Shown here: piece after piece, positions 2,679 through 20,345 of the stretch | Layout: every line of letters starts with the position of its first letter | How positions within the stretch are numbered: the stretch's first letter is position 1 | Assembly: GCF_000281045.1 (NCBI RefSeq) | Contig: NW_008246118.1 | Span: 75,429 to 108,794 of the forward strand | Direction: 5' to 3' | Source of the DNA: Saprolegnia diclina VS20 | Taxonomy: Eukaryota; Oomycota; Saprolegniomycetes; Saprolegniales; Saprolegniaceae | Length of the DNA: 33,366 nt | Made by a program: the position numbers and the translations under genes | The notes under the pieces: model-generated | What the model was told of the DNA's origin: nothing | The model's input: the letters and a program-made list of their open reading frames with translations, nothing else | Databases searched by the model: none

Positions 2679-5600
2679 TTACCGAATGCGGTGCAGTGGG
2701 AGCACCGCCGACGTCGGAAACGGGCATGTTGTCGTCTCGGGCGCAACGACAAAGTGCCGCCAGCTCTTGATGTCAAAGAGGTGCAAGTCTCCGCGGTAGC
2801 GCCACGTGAACAAGCCGCCCATCGCAGCCGACATCCTGTCCGTGTACTGCTCGTCGCCAATCGCCCAGTTGCTCAGATTCGACGAGTACAGACTCGTCGC
2901 GTTCAGAAACAGCGACGTGATGCGCGACGGTGGCAGCGTCGGGCGCAGAAGCCGCTCGACGACGGCGGCTCCCACGACGCAGCTCACACAGAGTGCCACG
3001 TCAATCGAGACGCGGCTCACGCGGCCAATCTCAACGTGTCCGCTTGTGCAAGTGAGCGCCAGGTCCATATCAACGTAGGTGCAGCGGCGACGCACAAAGG
3101 CCGTGTAGTCTTGCGGCACCGCCAGCGTCCACGCGGCCGCAACAGCGCTTGCTGCGACCGAGCTCTTCCACGCATAAAAGGGCGTGTACTGGCGCGTGAC
3201 GCAGCTAAGGACGTCGTTCATTATGTACACAAGCCACGAAAGCTCGGACGCGCCGAGGAGCGTCGGAACGACGGCGAGCGGTGGAGCTACAAAGCGAGCG
3301 CCTGCGCCGACAGCCGTGAGCTCGAGCGGCTGCGTGTTGAGAAGCCATAGCGCAGTCACGCCGCGGACAATGAGCAAGACGCGGCCGACCCACGCATGCC
3401 CAACGAGTCGATTCAACGCAAAGAGATTCGCGCCTTCGTACGCGCCACGGCAAACAAAAAGAGCGTAAAGGGCGGCGATGGCCGCACCGAGCATGATGGT
3501 ACCGGTGACGTAGCGTACGCACTGCTGGCAGACAAACGAGAGACGGGTTGGGATGGCCGCGTCATCGATTGCGAGCGTCATGGGCTTTGACTGCTTGGAG
3601 ATGGCGGTGATCGCACCAGCATCGCCCTGGAAGGAGACAACCTCGCGGAGCCCAAGAACCCACTCGGCCAAGTAGTTCCACCCGAAAAAGAGCCAAGACC
3701 GGTCGCTTGCGTCCAAAATATTGATTTTGTAGAGCTGGACGTTGGAACTGTTGTATGGCTTGACAAGGAACTGAACTGTTTGGATATCAAGCGCGCGCGC
3801 CTCCGACTCGGCGGCCGTCGCCAAAGACCGCAGCGACGCCGTCAACCGACACAGCGTGCTGTTCGCCAACGTAAACGAAGCGTTGTAGATGGCAACGCAC
3901 GCCGCTTCGGCGTACACATCGCGTGCGCAGAACGCCGCCAAGTCCGTATCTGGTTGCATGGTATGCACCGCGTCAAAACCCGAAAGCGCAAAGAGAAGGC
4001 CAAGCGTCGACGGCGTGAAGTACTCTAAATGCCACCACGAACAGAGCGAGTCGGCGCCAAAGAGCGCGTAGAGCGCCCCGGACGGCGGCGACACTTGAAT
4101 GTCATTCCCGCAGGTGAGATCCCCGCCGACGATACCGACATCCGGGTCGGTCAGAAGAGTTATGGGCACGTGGCCGATGTAGGGTTTTGCAGGTAGCGCT
4201 AAAAGCTGCCGTTGGGCGGAAAGGTTCTTTGTCGTCTCGGTTGCAATGGACTGCCGCACTGCGTCGTAGAAGTCTAGGAGGGACCTCGGGCAGCTAATGT
4301 AGATCATGTCGACGGCCCCAAAAGGACCTATCGAGGCGTTTACGAGGTGCAGACCGAGAAGAAGTGGCGACGAGAGGGTTAGGTTTTCAAAGAGCAAACT
4401 GGCGCGTGTCGCATTGGCAAAGGCAAACTCGGGACTTTGCCGGAGAAGCGAACGGCCACCAATGCGTGTAGTATTGGTGTTGATAGCCCAAAGGTCGCTT
4501 GCAAAGGCCCAGTAAAAACGATGCGACGTCTGGCGATCCAAGTGCATGACACCGGCGCGCTGGCTGATGGGGAGTGTGTACGACAAGCCAAGCGCCGACG
4601 AGACGACCATGGCGTCGTCGAGGCCCGTGTCCTTAAAATTCTGCCACTGCAGCACAAACTGCGTGATACCGTGTGCGCGCCAGTAGTCAACTTCCTCAGA
4701 GACCGAGAGCACCTGTGGCCGAGCTATCTCGTCCAGCCAAAAGCGACCTCCTTCGGACGATTCCAAGTAGCGACCAAACCCAATATCAAACGAGTCGCCC
4801 CAGCAATAGCGCCATCGAGCCCAGTCGCGCACATTTCGCAAGCTTGTCTCGAGGTACAGAGCGCCGTTAGCCGCATGCCCCCTACAGCGTGCTTGGCGGG
4901 AGTGCGTGCTCGCCATCTCATAGCGTTGGTTCACATCGAGCCAGCAGTACTGCGTGAACATCCACGGTAATTGACACGGGTCCATAGCGCGAAGCCCCGC
5001 AACCAGATCCTCGAGTGGCGGAGCTGTGCTCAAGAGGTACCGCCGCGCCATCGTCGGGTACCCTGCCACGATGCTGCTCGAGCTATTGTATGGCTGCAGC
5101 GGGTCCGCGAACGATGCATCATGCAGCAAAATCGGTGCGTCGACCGAAGTGAGCAGCTGGGCGTTGAACGTGTTGGCAAGGAACGCGTGCATACCCGTGG
5201 CGATGAAGCCAGCCCAGCCAAAATCGTTTGCGAGCGACTTTTGCAACACGCCCAAGTACGCCGTGTTGCTCCAGAGCGTGAGGCCAATGTACACCACGCC
5301 CGAGACGCGAAGCAGTCGTTCCCAGGACGAGCGCTGCAACGTCAAATTCCCACTTGTTTGTCTCACCGTTCTCGGCGGCGCGCTGAAAGGAAGTACAATA
5401 GCGCCATCTGCGCCATCGTCAAAGACACGGTCGTCGGCACACAGCAATAGCCAGAGCTTGATGTCAAAAAGGTAGGTACGGCCGCGCCAGCGCAGCGGCA
5501 AGAGGCCACACATGACCGCGGCCGTCGCACTCACTGCATGCCCGGCGGGCGTCACGCGCCAAGGAGAGAGCAATGGCAAGATCGCGTTTGGGCGAGGCGT

Positions 5601-7931
5601 CTCGGTGCTTGATACTCGGCGGCAAAATGCTGTAACGAACGATGCGCAAATGAAAAAGGCGGCGATGCTCAGGATGACGAGTACGCGCGAAAAGCTACCG
5701 ACGTGCACTACACCGCTGGTGCAGTACACCATCGAGTCCATGTTAACTGTGTAGCACTGCCGATCGAGTGACGCAGACAGCGTCAGTGGCGCCAACTGAT
5801 CCAGCGCAAGAATTGCGCACCAGCATGAGAAAGCGTGCAACGGCGACGTGCGAATGCTTGTGCGCTGAAGCGGCAGTAGCACATTGTGGGCGACGAGCAT
5901 GAGCCAAAGGCTCTCGAGGGCGAGAACGCTGGACACCAAGATGGAGCGCGGCCCTTCGACTAGCCGAATGAACCCACTCGTCGTCGTTGAAGTGCCGAGC
6001 GGTACCGCGGCCAAGCATAGAATGGCCGCGACGCTGCGAAGGACGAGGAGGTTGCGGCTCACCCAAACGGAAGCCGTGAGCGGCACAAAGCTCCACCAGT
6101 CGTGGGATATAGCGCTTCGCGTGCGCCAGCCAACGCAGAGCAAGAGTCCCCCCGTAATAACGAGAGTGCCTGACGTGACTATTGCCAGGAAGGAGAGATA
6201 TGGTCCCAAACTCCTGGGTGCAGACGCGTCGTCCTTTGTACTTGGTAGTGGAAGGTACAGAGACGACATGAGTGTGAAGGACGCCACGTCACCTTGGATC
6301 TGAACCACTTCGCGCTGATTCCGCGCCCAGTCGTAGAGGTACATGGCGCCGAGGAATGCAAAGTCGGGCGATAGCAGTGGTTGCAGGTCCAGCTCGATGG
6401 CTGCTGTCGTATTGCGCATCAGCATTTGAAACAGTCCGACGTTGTACGCTGCCACGTCATCGGTCCAGGACGTGGGTGGCGTCAAAAGAGGTAGCGTACT
6501 TTGCAGGGACATGGCGTCGGCAACGAGTCGTAGGCATGCATCACCGTCGACGAAGGGTGCGCAGGTCGTGCTTGGGTGTGCCCCGTACAAAGCGAGCGCG
6601 AAGAGTGCATTGTAGACGTGCCACTCGAGCGTCAAGGGGGCTTGAGCGCCGCAGACATCGTCAAAGCCAAACGTTTGCTGCACGAAAGGCATAGGCCCCC
6701 CAAAGGTGCACATCGGGTTGCCCGTAAGAAAGCGAAAATTCGCGTCCTTCCAGCGCAAAGGGCGCGGGTGCAACGTGTGGCGACCGAGCTTTCCGGACGC
6801 GCTTGGCGTCGTTAGTAGGCGCTCGGTGAGGTCGGCGTGAAAGAGGCTCACGGAGCGAATCAAGCTGCGCGGTGCCGGTACCCACTTGATGTCAATGTTG
6901 CCGAGAGGCCCGATACCATCATGTAAAACTTGCTGCAGCAGACGCAGTGGGTATCCTTGGCAATAGGTCTCTATCTGGTTCGGATCAACATCGCCAAAGT
7001 AGCGGTGTGTGCCCCGCACAAGGCTTTGGTTGGTCCCAATGGCGTACAAGTCGTTGTAGAGAAGGTTGTACAGGACGTTGGTGGTCCGAAATGCCCAGCG
7101 ATTTAACATCGGCTTGGCCTTGAGCGGCAATAAGAGGCGCTGCCCGAGCGCATTCGCCATCTCGATCGTTTCCGAGACACCGATATCGTAGCCGGTCCCG
7201 TACTGCAGCGCAAAGCGATCGATGCCATGTCGCTGCCAGAGCGCGGCTTCATCGCTTTCGGCCACCCATGTGTGTATCTGAAGGGCTGCAAGCCATTTTG
7301 CGCCGTCCTCGCTCGACTCTGCGATCGGCGTCCCGATCGTCGAGAGAAACCGGCCTTGGGTTGACGCCAGGAACGACTTCCACTTGATGTTGCGCAAAAT
7401 GGTCTCGAGGTGCACGGCGCCGTTGGCGGCATCGAACCTCGCACAGCGCGCTTGCCGACGTACGGTATAGGCCAGCTCCCAACGCTTTTGCAAGTCAACC
7501 CAGCAGTATGGCGACACCATTCTGACGACGCGAGACGCCGCAAGCTGCCGGAGACCGCGGACGGCGCTCTGCACGGTTGTGAGATCGTCGTACATGAGGA
7601 GCCGCGCATATGCAGAGCTCGGCGCACTGGGCAGCGCCGCAATGTAGGCCGCTTGTGGCGCCACCAGATCCAAGGCGCCGGTGCCATCGAGTGCGAGCTC
7701 GTGGTTCAGCGTAGTGACGAGTACGTGGGCCATCGCGTCAAAGTCGGGGACAAAAAAATCGGTTGCAAGGTACGAAGCAAAGATGTCGAGCGCAAAGCAG
7801 ATCAAGCCGATGGACACGATAACACTGAGGACGCCACCCGCCTCCGTGACGACGCGCCGTCGGCATGTCTGTGGTCGAGCAAGAGGAAAGGCAGGGCCGT
7901 CCAGACGCGACGGCCAGACATGGACGCGCAT
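2679..7931 (-). CDS. Giant multipass membrane protein made of two tandem homologous units
   Basis: One uninterrupted frame of 1750 residues starts at an ATG at 7931 and has no intron, unlike most genes here. I do not recognise a named family. Each unit has the same order: a membrane segment near its start (about residues 33-55 in unit 1, about 875-900 in unit 2); a large, probably extracytoplasmic domain with many Asn-X-Ser/Thr sites; a cluster of membrane helices; and a short tail containing FDIKLW or FDIKSW. Paired landmarks include YCWVDLQKRWE/YCWLDVNQRYE (about 141 and 994), GAVHLETILRN/GALYLETSLRN, CTSGVVHVG/CTSGHVEIG, and the two FDIK tails (about 823 and 1721). The spacing between copies is therefore about 850-900 residues. 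No catalytic motif is seen. A lineage-specific surface or membrane protein family is likely; transport or receptor roles are only guesses. Confidence 0.85.
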   Translation of the reverse strand: MRVHVWPSRLDGPAFPLARPQTCRRRVVTEAGGVLSVIVSIGLICFALDIFASYLATDFFVPDFDAMAHVLVTTLNHELALDGTGALDLVAPQAAYIAALPSAPSSAYARLLMYDDLTTVQSAVRGLRQLAASRVVRMVSPYCWVDLQKRWELAYTVRRQARCARFDAANGAVHLETILRNIKWKSFLASTQGRFLSTIGTPIAESSEDGAKWLAALQIHTWVAESDEAALWQRHGIDRFALQYGTGYDIGVSETIEMANALGQRLLLPLKAKPMLNRWAFRTTNVLYNLLYNDLYAIGTNQSLVRGTHRYFGDVDPNQIETYCQGYPLRLLQQVLHDGIGPLGNIDIKWVPAPRSLIRSVSLFHADLTERLLTTPSASGKLGRHTLHPRPLRWKDANFRFLTGNPMCTFGGPMPFVQQTFGFDDVCGAQAPLTLEWHVYNALFALALYGAHPSTTCAPFVDGDACLRLVADAMSLQSTLPLLTPPTSWTDDVAAYNVGLFQMLMRNTTAAIELDLQPLLSPDFAFLGAMYLYDWARNQREVVQIQGDVASFTLMSSLYLPLPSTKDDASAPRSLGPYLSFLAIVTSGTLVITGGLLLCVGWRTRSAISHDWWSFVPLTASVWVSRNLLVLRSVAAILCLAAVPLGTSTTTSGFIRLVEGPRSILVSSVLALESLWLMLVAHNVLLPLQRTSIRTSPLHAFSCWCAILALDQLAPLTLSASLDRQCYTVNMDSMVYCTSGVVHVGSFSRVLVILSIAAFFICASFVTAFCRRVSSTETPRPNAILPLLSPWRVTPAGHAVSATAAVMCGLLPLRWRGRTYLFDIKLWLLLCADDRVFDDGADGAIVLPFSAPPRTVRQTSGNLTLQRSSWERLLRVSGVVYIGLTLWSNTAYLGVLQKSLANDFGWAGFIATGMHAFLANTFNAQLLTSVDAPILLHDASFADPLQPYNSSSSIVAGYPTMARRYLLSTAPPLEDLVAGLRAMDPCQLPWMFTQYCWLDVNQRYEMASTHSRQARCRGHAANGALYLETSLRNVRDWARWRYCWGDSFDIGFGRYLESSEGGRFWLDEIARPQVLSVSEEVDYWRAHGITQFVLQWQNFKDTGLDDAMVVSSALGLSYTLPISQRAGVMHLDRQTSHRFYWAFASDLWAINTNTTRIGGRSLLRQSPEFAFANATRASLLFENLTLSSPLLLGLHLVNASIGPFGAVDMIYISCPRSLLDFYDAVRQSIATETTKNLSAQRQLLALPAKPYIGHVPITLLTDPDVGIVGGDLTCGNDIQVSPPSGALYALFGADSLCSWWHLEYFTPSTLGLLFALSGFDAVHTMQPDTDLAAFCARDVYAEAACVAIYNASFTLANSTLCRLTASLRSLATAAESEARALDIQTVQFLVKPYNSSNVQLYKINILDASDRSWLFFGWNYLAEWVLGLREVVSFQGDAGAITAISKQSKPMTLAIDDAAIPTRLSFVCQQCVRYVTGTIMLGAAIAALYALFVCRGAYEGANLFALNRLVGHAWVGRVLLIVRGVTALWLLNTQPLELTAVGAGARFVAPPLAVVPTLLGASELSWLVYIMNDVLSCVTRQYTPFYAWKSSVAASAVAAAWTLAVPQDYTAFVRRRCTYVDMDLALTCTSGHVEIGRVSRVSIDVALCVSCVVGAAVVERLLRPTLPPSRITSLFLNATSLYSSNLSNWAIGDEQYTDRMSAAMGGLFTWRYRGDLHLFDIKSWRHFVVAPETTTCPFPTSAVLPLHRIR

Positions 7932-8097
7932 CGCTTACATGTAACTGGCATCCTGTAACTGCGCCAAACACTGTATTCAAAGGATTTCTTGGATACAGAA
8001 TTTTGCCCTGACAATCCCAACAAATGCAACTGCACAAACCACACTGACAAGGCTAAATATGAGGCGGTCTCATTCAGATTAGATTGGTGTCTACTAC

Positions 8098-10289: not shown

Positions 10290-13200
10290 ATGGACAAGGA
10301 CCTCCTGGGCAAGCGCACCAAGCAGCACCGCAAGTCCACGAGCGGCGCCAAGGTCAACAAGAAGAAGCGCAACGACGCGCAGAAGAACGAGCAGGCCAAG
10401 AATGCCAAGAACAACCCCAAGGCCTTTGGCGTCTCCAAGATTGGCAAGGCCAAGCGCATGACGCAGCGCAACCTCGACAAGGCCCACCAAAAGGAGTACG
10501 TGCCGCAGGTCGACCGCATGGAGGACACGCCGCCGCCTGTCTCGGTCGTCGTCATGGGCCCGCCCGGCTCGGGCAAGTCGACGCTCATCCGGTCGCTCGT
10601 CAAGCGCTACACGCGCCACAACATTGGCGAGATCAAGGGCCCGGTCACGGTCATTAGCGGCAAGGACCGCCGCATCACGTTCTTCGAGTGCCCCAACGAC
10701 CTCAACGCCATGATCGTACGTTCCTTCCTTCTTCTCAACGACGTGCTCATGACGGCGAGTAGGATCTCGCCAAGATTGCCGACCTCGTCTTGCTCATGGT
10801 CGACGCCAGCTTTGGTTTCGAGATGGAGACGTTCGAGTTCCTCAACATCCTCCAGGTACCACCACCCTTCCTCCTCTGTGTGCTGAGGAATCGCGTAGGT
10901 CTCGGGCTTTCCCAAGGTCATGGGCATTCTCACGCACCTCGACAAGTTCAAGAACAACAAGAGTCTGCGCCAGACCAAGAAGCGTCTCAAAAGCCGCTTC
11001 TGGACCGAGATTTACCAGGGCGCCAAGCTCTTTTACTTCTCCGGCATCGTCTCCAACAAGGTTCGCTCTCCTCTTCGAAGGCTGCTTGGCTCATCTCTGT
11101 CCTAGTACCCGAAGGGCGAGATCAACAACATGATGCTGTACATCGCGCGCATCAAGTTCCGCCCGCTCACGTGGCGCAACTCGCACCCGTACCTGCTCGT
11201 CGATCGCTTCGAAGACGTGACGCACCCCGACGCGATCCAGCAAAACCCCGTGTGCGACCGCAAGGTCACGCTGTACGGGTACCTCCGCGGCACGCACCTC
11301 AAGCCCGGCATGAAGGTCCACGTCGCCGGCGCTGGCGACTTTTACATGGAGTCGGTCACGTCGCTTCCGGACCCATGCCCGTTGCCGTCCAAGAGCAGCG
11401 ACAAGGTCAAGAAGCACCTCTCGCAGAAGGACATTATGCTCTACGCGCCCATGTCCGAGTACGATTTCTCTCCATATCGAGTGGACGTGCACTCATATGT
11501 ATGGGAGTAGCGTCGGCAACATTATGTTTGACAAGGACGCCGTGTACATCAACCTCGGGACTGTCAACTACTCCAAGAAGGACGACATTGAGGATGACGG
11601 CGATGAGACCGCCCAAGGCAAAGGCGGCGAAGGCACCGACATGGTCCAGAGCCTCCAGCAAATCGAGTCGGGTCTCGGCATCGACGAGCGTCTCAAGGGT
11701 GCGACCATGTCGCTCTTCAAGAACACGGCTGCGATCCGGGCGGACGAGCTCGACAGCGATGACGAGGATGACGACCAGGACGCAGAAGATGACGCTGCCA
11801 ATGACAGTGACGATGACGACGACGAGGACGACGAGGACGACGAAGATGATCAGGACACGTCCAAGGCGCGCAAGTCCAACCCGAAGGAGAGCATCGAGAC
11901 GGACGCTTCCGGGCGCGTGCGTCGCCGCGCTGTTTTCGACATGAACGACGCTGGCTCGGACAACGACGACGAAGCCATGCGTGACGGCTCGTCCTCGGAT
12001 GACAACGACTCTGAAGATGACGAAGGTGACGAGGAAGATGACGAGGAGAACGAGGAAGCGGCGCCGGCCTCGGCGGAAGCGTCGCAGATGCGCTGGAAGG
12101 ACAAGCTCGTCGAGCGCGCGGCGATGAATTTTCTCGAGCGCGAGCAGAGCGATATCAACCTCATGGAGCTCGTGTACGGCGCGACGGAGAAGCTCCATAT
12201 TGCGGACGCGGACGCGGCCCGCGCCAACGACAGCGAGAACGACGACGACGACGACGACGATTTCTTCCGGCCCAAAAACGCCGCCAACAAGAAGAAGGAC
12301 AAGAAGACGTCGTCGACATCGGACGATGGCGACGACATCAACAGCCTCGACTCGAGCAAGTATGTGCCTGCCGAGCTCCAGGCGTGGGACATGCCCGACC
12401 TTCTCGAGAGCCTCCGCAACAAGTTTGTCACGGGCTCGTGGAAGAAGCCGACAGCCGGTGACGACAACGACGTCGACATGGGCGACGATGACGTTGATGG
12501 GTCGTTCGAGGACCTGGAGACGGGGGAAGTCCACCGTGGCAAGGACGACGACGACAACGACGACGAGGACGCTGGCAGCGACGACGAAGCCCCGGAAGAC
12601 GAGTCGCCCGAAGAGATGCGCAAGCGCATTGGCGAAGAGAAGGCGCGGAAGCGTGCCAACTTGGACTCGGACGACGACAAGGACAAGGAAGAGGAGGACG
12701 AGGAGATCACCGAGATCATGGCCGAGGCCAAGCGTCTCAAGGAAACCCAAGCGCTGCGCAACGCCGAAGAGTTTGGCAAGGAAGGCGAAGACACGCGTCT
12801 CCAGCTCGAAGGCTTCCGCAACGGCCTCTACGTGCGCATCGAGATTCACGGTGTCCCGAGCGAGTTTGTGACGTGCGCGAATCCCACGACGCCAATCGTG
12901 GTCGGCGGCCTCCTCCCGCACGAACACGCGCTCGGCCTCATGCGGCTCCGCATCAAGAAGCACCGCTGGCACCGCAAGGTGCTCAAGGCCAACGACCCGC
13001 TCGTGTTTTCGATCGGCTGGCGGCGGTTCCAGTCGCTGCCCCTCTTCTCGATCGAGGACCAGAACGAGCGCCATCGGTACCTCAAGTACACGCCCGAGCA
13101 CATGCACTGCTCGGCGACCATCTACGCGCCTATCTGCCCGCCCAACACGGGCGTCCTCGCCTTCCAGAACATGTCCAACAAGGTCGACGGCTTCCGCGTG

Positions 13201-13986
13201 AGTGCGACCGGCGTCGTCCTCGAGCTCGACCACACATTTTCGGTGATGAAGAAGCTCAAGCTCATTGGCCACCCGACCAAGGTGCACAAGAACACGGCGT
13301 TCCTCAAGGGCATGTTCAACACGGAGCTCGAAGTCGCCAAGTTTGAGGGCGCGAGTCTCCGTACGGTGAGTGGCATTCGTGGCCAAGTCAAGAAGGCGAC
13401 GCGCGGCGGCAAGGGCGACTTCCGTGCGACCTTCGAAGACAAAATTCTCAAGTCGGACATTGTGTTTTGCCGCACGTGGGTACCGGTGGAGCCCAAGCTG
13501 CTGTACAACCCGGTCACGTCGCTCCTCGACCCCAAGTGGCGCCGCATGAAGACCATGCGCGAGTTGCGGCAGCAGAACCAGCTCCCGATTCCAGTCAACC
13601 CCGACTCGGTCTACAAGCCGATTGAGCGCAAGACCAAGATCTTCAACCCGCTCCGCGTGCCGGCCAAGCTCCAGGCGCAGCTGCCGTTTGCGAGCAAGCC
13701 CAAGCTCGACAAGAAGAAGGGCAAGAAGGCCGAGACGTACGTCACGAAGCGCGCGGTCGTCCTCGAGCCCGAAGAGCGCAAGAAGTATGCGCTCATTCAG
13801 CAAGTCAACACGCTCCGCCGCGAAAAGAACACGATCCGGGTCGCCAAGCAAAAGGAGCGGTCCAAAGAGAACCTCAAGCGCAAGGCCCGCGAAGAAGCCA
13901 AGTTTGCCGACGTCCACAAGGCCGAGAAGAAAGCCAAGTACCGCGCGGCGGGCAAGGAGGCCGCGTACCGCGCGTCCAAGGCGTAG
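10290..13986 (+). CDS. BMS1: BMS1, GTPase of 40S ribosome assembly
   Basis: Five exons, 10290-10715, 10763-10855, 10899-11060, 11106-11458 and 11511-13986, give 1169 residues, close to yeast Bms1 (about 1180). Introns are 47, 43, 45 and 52 nt and all end in TAG. Bms1 is a nucleolar GTPase of the small-subunit processome that recruits Rcl1. In order the protein has a Lys-rich N-terminus; a P-loop GPPGSGKST (about 90-98); the G-domain, including ILTHLDKFK; the AARP2CN-type segment; long Asp/Glu-rich tracts (coded around 11755-11850, 12000-12055 and 12230-12260, then 12540-12710); and the conserved C-terminal RIBIOP_C half ending in a Lys/Arg-rich tail. The fourth intron looks like a frameshift at about 11460-11510 until spliced; splicing restores [18 protein letters not shown]. 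The ATG at 10290 is the first in frame. Upstream is the divergent SMS-like gene. Confidence 0.96.
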
Positions 13987-14179
13987 ACTTGTGTTTACGT
14001 TGTCAATTGGCTCGATAATCTAGACTGTGTATGCTTTATCCACAAGCTTTCGCAATATTTGAATGCACACCCCCGCTTTTGCCAACTATTAGTCGGTTTC
14101 GAGACAAACAAGCTTGCTCTAGACCGCAGAAATCACTGTTCGTTGGCTCCATATCACAGGTCCCATCGATGCACCTGTA

Positions 14180-16606: not shown

Positions 16607-18922
16607 ATGGGCAACCACGTGAGCGCGTACGTCCCGACGCACCAGCGGCTGCATGTGCTCGAGAACACGCCGTTTGCCATGTTCCTCAACAAGGAAGTGC
16701 TCCACGACATTGCCCTTTGCTTTGGCACCGTCAAGTTTGAGCCGGGTGCGCCCATCGTGTTTCAGAAGCATGAGCTCGTCATCGTCGCCAAAGGCACTGC
16801 GGACGTGAGCACGATCGTGCCCCAGACCGCGCACAAGAAGGTCAAGGTCACTGAAGTCCTCTGCAAGAAGCGCGTCGGCGACATTTTGACCAGCGTCACA
16901 AAAGCCACGGCCATCATGCAGCGCAAGTCGTCGAGCGCCGCCAGTTACGCCGGTGGCAAGAACGTCACCGCGATGCTCGACCTCGTCACCGTACGTCGAT
17001 TCCTCCACTGGCGCGTAGAGTAAGCTATACTACTTCGCAGGTGACAGCGGACAAGAAGGAAGGCTGCGTCGTCTTGCGCCTCAACAGAGAGCGTTTTCTC
17101 AAAATTCGATCCAAACACATTCGGGACGTACGCCGCCACTCCGACGCCATGCTCGTTCTAGAGTCCTATTGCGTAGGGCACGTACCATTTGACGATCAAC
17201 CGCGCGACCAAGTCGGCCGCCGACGACTGGCAGCTCATTTCGTCCATTGCTGACGAACAAGTTGTCGACTATCTCGGTACCGCCACTCACTGTAGACGCT
17301 TGGATCCACATGCCAGTAGCCGGCGTCCCCTTCTTTGCAGACGTGACGAGCACGCGGCTCCTCGGTCTCGCAGGCCTCTGCTCGTTTCTCGTCGTGCAGA
17401 AAGATGACGTCGTATGCCGCGAGAACGACCTCGGCGACCGCTTCTACATCTGCATCGAAGGCCTTTTGCAGGTGACGGTCACCAACCAAGCAGCCAAACC
17501 AACGCTGCACGTCTCGACAAAGTCTATCTCGCAGCGCCGCCTCGAGCGCCACCGGCCGTCGCTCGCGATGAGCGAAGTGCTCATCCGACGGCTCGCAAAC
17601 GGCAGCTACTTTGGCGAGATCTCGCTCTTGCTCAACGTCAAGCGCAGTGCGACGGTCAAAGCCGTGGAAAACTCGCTCTTGGTGTACATTGAAGCCCCGG
17701 CGTTCCGCAACTTTATCAAGGTCTGCCCCGACGTCAAGTCGGCCCTCGAAGAAGGTGCGGTTGCCGAATCTCACATGCTATCGACAAGTTGTCATTACTA
17801 GTCATCATTGCGCGCTTGCTGCAAATCACAACCAAGCACCACGTGCACAACTTTGTCGCTGCGATGAAGGGCGAAGATCAGTGCCGCATGGCCCAAGCCG
17901 GGTCGCTCACCGAAGTTACCAAAGGCACGACGTTCATCCACGAAGACGACGAACCGAGTACGTTTCTGGTCACCTGAATTTTCGGCATTTTGACAATTTT
18001 CCAGTGTTTTATATCGTCTTGAACGGTCTTGTCGAGGTCGAGTACCCGTTTCCGACCGGCAAGTCGTACGTGACGCTGCCGCCCGGCGGCTACTGCGGTG
18101 AAATCTCCGTCATGCTCCACTGCAAGAGCCTCATCACGGCGACCGCGGCCGAAGACACGATCCTGCTCGTCATGACACCCGTCGCGTTCCATAGCCTCTT
18201 TTCTACGCTGCGCGAAGTCTTTTCCGAGTTTTTGCTCCGAAATCTCCAGGAACTTGCGCGCATCGAAGACGTTATCGACCACTACGAGGCGCACGAATTA
18301 TGGCTCGTCTTTATCGAGTCGAGACCGACCAACTTTGGCGAAGCAACGCGGTACGCACCCCGCCTCGCAGCCGCAAAAGCCATCGTAGTATGAACCGAAT
18401 AGTAGGACCATGATGAACGGACTCGGCCTCTTGGAAGAAATTGAAGAATTCGTCGCGGGTTTTGCGTCCATGGACTTTGACGAGCTCCGGAAAAGCGCGC
18501 GGACCATCGTCAACGACTATTTAAGCCTCGGGGCGCCCAAGCGGGTACGCGCTCGCGTGAAGTTGCGGGTAGAGACGTGATTGTGACGCTAGGTGCCCAT
18601 CTCGGCCGAGGCAGTGGCGTCCGTTGCCGCGTCCGTGGAGCACCCCGAGCTCGACAAAGGTCTCTTCCGGGCAGTTCGCACCGAGATGCTTGGGCTCATG
18701 GGCGGCCCGACGTTCACCGAATTTAAGTCGTCTCCAAAGTTCAAGGACCTCCTCGAGTCGTACGCGTGCGTGCCGGACATCCCGAGCCACCTCTCGCCGA
18801 GCATGCTGCGGCAGCTCAGCTTTGACGAGTTTTGCCGCCTGCCGCACACAATTGTTCATACGTACAGCTGGAGCCACCCGGACCGAATGCAGTCGCTTCA
18901 GAAGAACCGACCAGAGGACTGA
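16607..18922 (+). CDS. Triple cyclic-nucleotide-binding-domain protein with C-terminal RGS domain
   Basis: Eight exons, 16607-16990, 17041-17127, 17177-17276, 17320-17754, 17802-17957, 18005-18350, 18403-18544 and 18593-18922, give 1980 nt (659 residues). The protein begins MGNHVS, which fits the N-myristoylation consensus. Three CNB folds follow: about 15-150, 192-330 and 345-455. Only the second keeps a full phosphate-binding cassette, with FGEISLLL at 288-295 and Arg299 followed by SAT. The third has CGEISVML but Ser where the Arg should be, and the first lacks the motif. From about 458 to 630 an RGS domain follows, with EEIEEFV, an NDYLSLGAPKRVPIS linker and an FTEFKSSPKFKDLL end helix. 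RGS domains speed GTP hydrolysis by G-alpha. The combination suggests cAMP- or cGMP-tuned G-protein shut-off at membranes (inference). The intron 6 acceptor is a TAGTAG tandem, so one Arg may be optional. Confidence 0.85.
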
Positions 18923-18991: not shown

Positions 18992-19789
18992 CTACGAAGC
19001 TTGCATCGTAATCTCGACCCAGCTCGCGTGGCGGTACCAGACGCGGCGTAGGCTCCACGAAATGTTGCGGGTCGCAAAGCACGGGCGGCGATTGAGTCGA
19101 CCGAGCTGGCGCACGGCCGCGTCCTCGGCCTCTTTGATCTGGCCCCACGCGCAGTAGAGCGAGAGCCCGCCCGTGCAGATGCAGCAGCCATACCCAACCG
19201 ACATGCACGGAACACATGGCCAATGGTCGATGAGCGCTTCGTTGACGAGCTTCATGGCCGAGGTAAAGTCTTCTTCCGACATGAACGGCGCCAAGTCGGG
19301 CGGGAACCGAGCGTCGTACTCGTTCGAGAGGCCGTTGATCCACGTGTCGCCCACCGCTGGCAACTTGCAGACCATCTTGGATACGGTGCTATTGCTGCTC
19401 ATGGGAACGTACGGCTTGTGCTCGGACACGACGACGCCCAACGAATGGCTCTGGATCTCGGCGGGTGCAATGCTCGTCCAGAAGGCCGGCGCGGCCGCGT
19501 CCGACGGCGTCTCGACCCATGTGCAGAAGACGCGGAGGAGGTCGGCGGTCGTGTCGAGCTCGCTCGTCTTGACGAGCGCGTCAATGTGGATGGCCACGGA
19601 CGTCGCTGGCTGCAACACGCCTTGGTCGGGCTGCGCGCGATACCGGCTGTCGTCCGATGGCAGGACCTGGAAGGCCACCGGGTACTCGCAGTTGGACGTG
19701 AGCGTGAAGAGCGCCACGGACGACGACCCGCAGAACTCGACGCTCTCGGTCGACACGAGCAGGAGCGGCTCCAAGGTCAAAGATCGCAT
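18992..19789 (-). CDS. MSP-domain protein fused to ERF4/CHIC-type cysteine-rich domain
   Basis: Single exon, 265 residues from the ATG at 19789; the frame is open slightly further upstream but has no ATG there. Residues about 4-110 resemble the MSP domain of VAP proteins: LTLEP start, a beta-rich run, YRAQPDQGVLQP, then a conserved W. Residues about 150-262 resemble the Golgin A7/ERF4 and CHIC family: GLSNEYDARFPPDL, an EEDF..A...VN helix, a Cys-rich hydrophobic patch (192-213, with GCCICTGG), and a C-terminal WSLRRVWYR segment ending in WVEI. ERF4/GOLGA7 proteins partner DHHC palmitoyltransferases, and CHIC proteins are palmitoylated membrane proteins; MSP domains bind FFAT-like motifs at ER contacts. 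Joining the two would place a palmitoylation cofactor at contact sites (inference). The stop lies 70 bp from the stop of the convergent CNBD-RGS gene. Confidence 0.75.
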   Translation of the reverse strand: MRSLTLEPLLLVSTESVEFCGSSSVALFTLTSNCEYPVAFQVLPSDDSRYRAQPDQGVLQPATSVAIHIDALVKTSELDTTADLLRVFCTWVETPSDAAAPAFWTSIAPAEIQSHSLGVVVSEHKPYVPMSSNSTVSKMVCKLPAVGDTWINGLSNEYDARFPPDLAPFMSEEDFTSAMKLVNEALIDHWPCVPCMSVGYGCCICTGGLSLYCAWGQIKEAEDAAVRQLGRLNRRPCFATRNISWSLRRVWYRHASWVEITMQAS

Positions 19790-20345
19790 TGCCGTCGAGG
19801 TGGCCAACCTGCTTCTGCCCGTCCTTGCTACAATGAGAATCGAATATCGGACTTAACGCGTTGTACTTGGTATTTGTATGTATCCTCATTAAATGCGCTT
19901 GATCCCATCTCACGTTCTCACGCTATTTTCACGCAACCCTCCTCGGACAACAGTCTCGGCGGGTCGTGGCCACTACGTGGAGTCAGCACCGACTGCCGTC
20001 TATACGAGCGCGCTTCGACTGAAATGGGGACTGAATTTAGCTGAATTTGAAATTGCGTGTTGATAGGCCACAGGAAACGACGAGTAATGGGTCATCTCGT
20101 CCAGTTTCGACTCGGCAAGTCGAAGACACTCCTGCATGTGGACATGGACCATCGATTGGAGTTACCCGAGCCAAGGGTTTATAAGAAATCATATCTCTTA
20201 TATACTCTTGCCCGAGTGCAACGCGGCCGACGACCCAGCACGAGCACGCAGATTTTCTCTGGCTTGGATAGGTTGTGTTTTCTTAGACCCGCACTTGAAC
20301 GGACCAATTTCGAAAGAGTTGGGAAACTTCAGCGCAAGGTTGAAG
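19790..20345. other. Divergent intergenic region
   Basis: These 556 bases lie between the start of the MSP-ERF4/CHIC gene (-) and the F-box gene (+), so two promoters are expected. The frame of the F-box gene is open upstream to an ATG at 20136, but that stretch lacks coding character. No RNA gene or repeat was recognised. Confidence 0.4.

Follow-up and report, generated by a model that had tools for sequence, protein, structure and literature searches.

The Saprolegnia diclina VS20 gene SDRG_12592 joins cyclic-nucleotide-binding (CNB) domains to an RGS domain within one polypeptide, an architecture that is both real and unusual. Its sequence places the product in a small family of oomycete proteins laid out as MG-CNB-CNB-CNB-RGS, which public databases already carry as hypothetical proteins annotated with both Pfam domains. 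We lean towards reading SDRG_12592 as a cyclic-nucleotide-sensing protein whose RGS-homology domain would be non-catalytic and would serve as a scaffold or antagonist, and we locate the link between cyclic nucleotides and G-alpha shut-off, if it exists, more plausibly in a pair of tandem paralogues.

Gene structure of SDRG_12592

The gene lies on the forward strand at 16607..18922 of the window, by which we mean the whole stretch of 33,366 nucleotides that was analyzed (C51:75429-108794, in an assembly of 54.15 Mb and 169 contigs). An earlier note made from the letters of this DNA had proposed a spliced frame of 1980 nt and 659 residues with seven introns, and we recovered this frame exactly, with GT-AG introns of 43-52 nt each. 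The reading frame and the seven introns stand, while the end of intron 6 at 18402 does not: the extra arginine that it creates is found in none of nine relatives (P0001-P0009), and the acceptor was therefore moved to the next AG, at 18405. This comparison gives an intron 6 of 55 nt (18351..18405, forward strand), which falls inside the RGS domain and between no domains. The corrected product of 1977 nt (stop codon included) and 658 amino acids is letter-identical to SDRG_12592 of S. diclina VS20 (P0001), and its eight forward-strand exons run 16607-16990, 17041-17127, 17177-17276, 17320-17754, 17802-17957, 18005-18350, 18406-18544 and 18593-18922. A chance frame is unlikely, because five Aphanomyces models carry both domains (46-50% identity) and because of the G+C content by codon position (0.58/0.39/0.79).

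The two halves could in principle have been produced by wrongly joining an adjacent CNB gene and RGS gene, which we regard as very improbable. An ATG is present after intron 6, and the gene model as well as the proteins of the relatives are predictions. Against such an artefact, the exon 18005-18350 (residues 388-502) alone codes for the greater part of CNB-C with its cassette and continues, uninterrupted by a splice junction, into the first RGS helices; moreover, the same fusion recurs in Achlya and Aphanomyces models and, on the side of the sister family, in one from Pythium. Two separate genes are thus disfavored both by exon structure and by conservation of the fusion, and the claim that CNB and RGS domains share one protein is upheld: on this evidence the fusion in SDRG_12592 is real and the product of a single gene.

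Other frames of the window include a convergent minus-strand ORF at 18992-19852, which carries an MSP domain (PF00635, 7.1e-7) and, below cut-off, a weak resemblance to Erf4 (0.001). The minus strand also holds a 1751-residue stop-to-stop open frame at 2679-7934 without a Pfam match up to 1e-3, and at 11314-14019 open frames of 890 (plus) and 861 (minus) residues overlap, the minus one without a Pfam match up to 1e-3.

Orthologues and tandem paralogues

Public orthologues of SDRG_12592, hereafter window-type, come from Achlya hypogyna (80% identity) and from four species of Aphanomyces, namely A. stellatus, A. invadans, A. euteiches and A. astaci (42-50%), all of this evidence consisting of gene predictions. 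Both Pfam domains are listed for seven of the nine window-type proteins (P0001-P0007), the five Aphanomyces models mentioned above among them. For P0008 only CNB is listed, yet the RGS region is present in its sequence; P0009, a 387-residue model for which only CNB is listed, lacks it and is the one exception to an RGS-length C terminus (8/9 models). A profile search with the window family returned 34 proteins, namely the nine known ones and 25 others; in the latter CNB accompanies oxidoreductase, kinase or channel domains, and RGS is listed in none of the 25. The relatives are a lower bound, as the protein searches scored about 8,000 candidates and relatives in Phytophthora or other stramenopiles may exist besides.

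A genome search with the SDRG_12592 protein recovered, apart from the gene itself, C12:440286-441389 (aligned to residues 276-610) and, at other places, four weaker stretches. Contig C12 holds tandem CNB-RGS paralogues at C12:436752-441620 (L017:2253-7121), in which five RGS contact residues are complete. Gene 2 (L017 4979-7121) has four exons and 666 residues and begins MGGTCTR from a start codon that was chosen and that matches the SPRG_08254 start; Pfam finds CNB at 2.4e-31 and a full-length RGS at 2.1e-17. Its relatives, which together with the C12 genes we call C12-type, are Saprolegnia parasitica SPRG_08254 (91%) and proteins of Achlya (80%), Aphanomyces stellatus (56%) and A. invadans (55%), and include P0043, a model of 461 residues without RGS. 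Gene 1 comprises a CNB stretch (C12:437782-437943) and, in the same orientation, an RGS stretch (438467-438835), with an upstream frame that begins MGSHASR; this layout is probable, since it was read from unspliced stretches.

Pythium insidiosum PINS_up008953 matches C12 gene 2 with 33% identity at 80% coverage, carries CNB and RGS, and groups with the C12-type in an unrooted FastTree tree. A PDB sequence scan of the family protein P0044 matched both CNB and RGS chains. When the window-type and C12-type alignments were compared with hhalign, they matched over 397 columns spanning CNB-B, CNB-C and RGS (probability 99.95, E 1.5e-37), CNB-A being outside the match. The fusion is therefore probably older than the split between the two types.

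N-terminus and cyclic-nucleotide-binding domains

The protein begins MGNHVS (16607..16624, forward strand), a possible N-myristoylation signal, for which MGxxxS/T is a consensus. An MG start is common in the family, being present in 14 of 15 proteins (P0001-P0009, P0039-P0044; the exception, P0007, is a model without the N-terminal stretch), and position 6 is S, T or G. The N-terminus of the family is a probable lipid anchor.

Three CNB folds had been proposed in the earlier note; two of them are significant (CNB-B and CNB-C), and the first is degenerate. Pfam cNMP_binding (PF00027) matches the whole protein at 1.6e-30 (105.3 bits, above the curated cut-off), the three stretches that it reports corresponding, as judged by piecewise scan, to CNB-B in two pieces and CNB-C. 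Scanned singly, CNB-B and CNB-C reach 58.2 and 46.4 bits, both above cut-off, and CNB-A reaches 13.7 bits (E 0.063) versus a cut-off of 27.5.

CNB-A (residues 25-157; 16679..17127, forward strand) is a degenerate fold without a recognizable phosphate-binding cassette, called from the sub-cut-off Pfam score and from strands and helices in an AF2 model. A first AF2 model, built on 7 sequences, was of low quality, with a mean pLDDT of 49.8, and was set aside; the model used drew on 10 sequences (mean pLDDT 61.4), and its block means over residues 11-160 are 24-68. A fold search aligned Plasmodium PKG chains, starting near residue 1-3 and ending near 455-461, with an rmsd of about 16, and the best 50 matches of each whole-model fold list are CNB-containing chains with no RGS chain. 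Based on this low-confidence part of the model and the Plasmodium PKG matches, CNB-A may be taken as a putative, degenerate CNB fold. The insert of CNB-A contains an Arg-Lys-Ser (R106 K107 S108; 16922-16930) that all nine window-type proteins share unchanged and that could be a phosphorylation site.

CNB-B (residues 185-345; 17258..17830, forward strand) looks canonical. Its phosphate-binding cassette, GSYFGEISLLLNVKRSATVK (17601..17660, forward strand), contains Glu290 and Arg299, and both residues are retained in all ten aligned window-type and C12-type sequences, FGE and RxAT being invariant (10/10). The ten-sequence alignment (A4) left out P0006-P0009 and P0043, and a further alignment (A2) left out P0006 and P0009. 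CNB-C (residues 346-470; 17831..18252, forward strand; Pfam 4.1e-12) has a cassette with Glu420 and without the Arg; the window-type in general keeps this Glu and loses the Arg, and the C12-type loses both. CNB-B is thus the only domain with a complete Glu-Arg pair. Its cassette reads RSAT in the window-type, RAAT in the C12-type and RTAT in C12 gene 1. In PKG and PKA, a hydroxyl after the cassette Arg permits cGMP, and Ala at this position favors cAMP. CNB-B looks binding-competent, and we predict from the cassette residues that it binds a cyclic nucleotide; these residues alone are no proof of binding, and the Foldseek matches include trypanosome PKA-R entries titled cAMP-independent.

An RGS-homology domain that has lost five putative G-alpha-facing residues

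The earlier note had placed an RGS domain after residue 458, and a significant Pfam match (PF00615) is indeed found there, both in the whole protein (36.5 bits versus a cut-off of 23.9, E 7.3e-9) and in the C-terminal piece alone (38.5 bits, E 1.7e-9). It covers residues 509-603 in the 659-residue numbering and profile positions 27-117 of 117, the first RGS helices having diverged upstream of the match. The RGS-homology domain as a whole spans residues 471-606 (18253..18763, forward strand) and is all-helical in the AF2 model, with block means of 63-91 over residues 471-600, the highest confidence of the model. The best PDB sequence match has an E-value of 0.015 for this RGS piece versus 2.4e-14 for that of C12 gene 2.

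In RGS4, we take Glu87, Asn88, Asp163 and Arg167 to be G-alpha-facing positions. We tabulated these and further residues in an 18-sequence alignment that includes RGS5, RGS8 and RGS17 and leaves out P0009 and P0043, which lack the RGS region. The equivalents of Glu87, Asn88, Asn128, Asp163 and Arg167 are all absent from the eight window-type sequences, none of which keeps any member of this residue set of GAP-active RGS domains, whereas all seven C12-type sequences have E N N D R at the same five positions. In SDRG_12592, Pro551 (18596..18598, forward strand) stands at the Asn128 position, in agreement with a phmmer alignment with RGS2, and Pro588 and Glu592 (18707..18721, forward strand) stand at those of Asp163 and Arg167; the latter position is acidic (Glu or Asp) in the window-type sequences. 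Leu159 is kept in 3/8 window-type and 7/7 C12-type sequences, and Ser164 in 1/8 and 4/7, respectively. The calls at Glu87 and Asn88 are weaker than those at Asn128, Asp163 and Arg167, because of about 20% identity and of alignment error near a 9-residue insert at the SEEN motif, and the Asn128 position alone is not absolute, because RGS17 has Ser there. RGS4 Asn128 is reported to bind G-alpha-i1 directly (PMC7572916).

In order to place these losses in the context of the genome, 25 RGS-like stretches from ten loci were compared, using a profile built from three human RGS segments and C12-type sequences, which leans towards complete RGS domains; ten stretches gapped at one of three positions were dropped. 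Asn/Ser128, Asp163 and Arg167 are all kept in five of the 15 stretches with letters there, two of these being the C12 genes, and at least one is missing from the other ten. Degenerate RGS stretches, several of which adjoin another RGS stretch, are thus common in this genome. The alignments indicate that the loss of these residues is not unique to SDRG_12592, yet it is consistent across its orthologue group. One RGS-like cluster (L028 and L029, C76:191200-197300), with units on the minus strand to the left and on the plus strand to the right, contains many degenerate units, and L025 and L033 each contain several RGS units.

An unlikely reading has the RGS domain decaying as a remnant whose constraint is relaxed, with the protein now working only via its CNB domains at the membrane. 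The commonness of degenerate stretches speaks for it, as does the low conservation of the domain: between Saprolegnia and Aphanomyces invadans, window-type identity is 56% for CNB-A, 64% for CNB-B and 50% for CNB-C and falls to 33% for RGS, the lowest of the folded domains, versus 46, 73, 51 and 54% in the C12-type. The two types differ little in RGS conservation when Saprolegnia is compared with Achlya (73% window-type, 76% C12-type), and this 73% argues against decay, together with the RGS-length C terminus of nearly all orthologue models, the high AF2 confidence of the region and the invariance of Glu580, Phe593 and Lys594 of the RGS bundle in ten of ten aligned window-type and C12-type proteins.

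Signaling setting and possible function

A single G-alpha of the genome passes the family cut-off (394 bits; C14:730304-731284), six further stretches falling below it, and the switch I of this G-alpha reads TSGIVEE, the glycine of which is presumably needed for RGS sensitivity. Nucleotide cyclase domains match 19 stretches. In oomycetes, adenylyl cyclase and phosphodiesterase each occur fused to receptors (PMC5784254, section 10), and in P. sojae a G-alpha is reported to share a pathway with an RGS protein (PMC9694693). A link from nucleotide to RGS would fit such a receptor-cyclase/G-alpha circuit.

The earlier note had proposed that the protein wires cAMP or cGMP levels to G-alpha shut-off, a function that is not supported for SDRG_12592 given the replacement of the five RGS positions in every orthologue with an RGS region (8/8); nor is the suggested role in zoospore signaling supported. 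That the protein is nevertheless a cyclic-nucleotide-gated GAP, in which cAMP or cGMP binding would free an active RGS domain and so exert negative feedback on G-alpha, appears quite improbable to us. The RGS match exceeds the Pfam cut-off, and the TSGIVEE G-alpha, the cyclase stretches and the receptor fusions (PMC5784254) would all suit such a device; on the other side, five of the seven tabulated G-alpha-facing positions are changed throughout the eight orthologues, an acidic residue replaces Arg167, and the paralogues that keep these residues are better candidates. A canonical GAP is therefore disfavored. For the C12 paralogues, a shut-off role is plausible on the residues that they keep, and it fits them better than SDRG_12592.

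The reading of SDRG_12592 as a nucleotide sensor with a non-catalytic RGS-homology domain is favored by the invariant CNB-B cassette, by the five replaced RGS residues, by the low RGS identity to Aphanomyces invadans and by the poor best PDB match of the RGS piece. It is weakened by the Pfam score of the domain, by the small RGS contrast between the two types in the Achlya comparison, and by Leu159 and Ser164, which are not uniformly lost. Under this preferred reading, a cyclic nucleotide would bind CNB-B and the CNB array would then change shape, so that the membrane-held RGS-like bundle might become accessible as a docking surface or be concealed. The partner could be G-alpha, bound without GAP action, or another protein, and the effect would be to scaffold or antagonize and not to switch off G-alpha.

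We further speculate, tentatively and with clear reservation, that a membrane-anchored, cyclic-nucleotide-gated RGS family of oomycetes may loop receptor-coupled cyclases to G-alpha, the C12-type acting as cAMP-gated GAPs and the window-type, with its RSAT cassette, as a conserved dead competitor for the same sites. If the C12-type is nucleotide-gated, a single protein would connect cAMP to G-alpha shut-off in organisms that possess receptor-cyclase and receptor-phosphodiesterase fusions.

Comparison with known systems

The domain order had been called unusual, which is borne out, and among the matches listed, no description of a CNB-RGS protein was found in the open-access literature, nor does one appear in the portions seen of PMC7572916, PMC9694693, PMC12223298, PMC6033456, PMC2837644, PMC12716839 and PMC5784254. 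In the part of PMC2837644 available, RGS and cNMP_binding each partner PX domains and not one another.

In contrast to PKG and to PKA regulatory subunits, the output domain of SDRG_12592 is RGS; a Pfam scan up to E 1 found no kinase domain, which sets it apart from the PKGs. EPAC, a cAMP-gated Rap exchange factor, similarly joins CNB to a G-protein regulator and offers a working analogy for a nucleotide-gated regulator, although its output acts on a small GTPase and, to our knowledge, it contains no RGS domain. D-AKAP2/AKAP10 (itself tied to PKA), GRKs and axin use RGS-homology domains for docking or partner binding, a parallel to what we propose here, and we know of no CNB domain in the same chain in any of them. 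The canonical RGS4, RGS5 and RGS8 share PF00615 with SDRG_12592, which lacks the five G-alpha-contact positions that the C12-type keeps. The closest comparison is found within the family itself: the C12 genes, SPRG_08254 and PINS_up008953 have the same layout, with homology from CNB-B through RGS, and the C12-type differs from SDRG_12592 in its complete set of five RGS residues and in a cassette without the RSAT of SDRG_12592. With intact and disarmed RGS domains attached to one kind of CNB array, the family offers a natural comparison.
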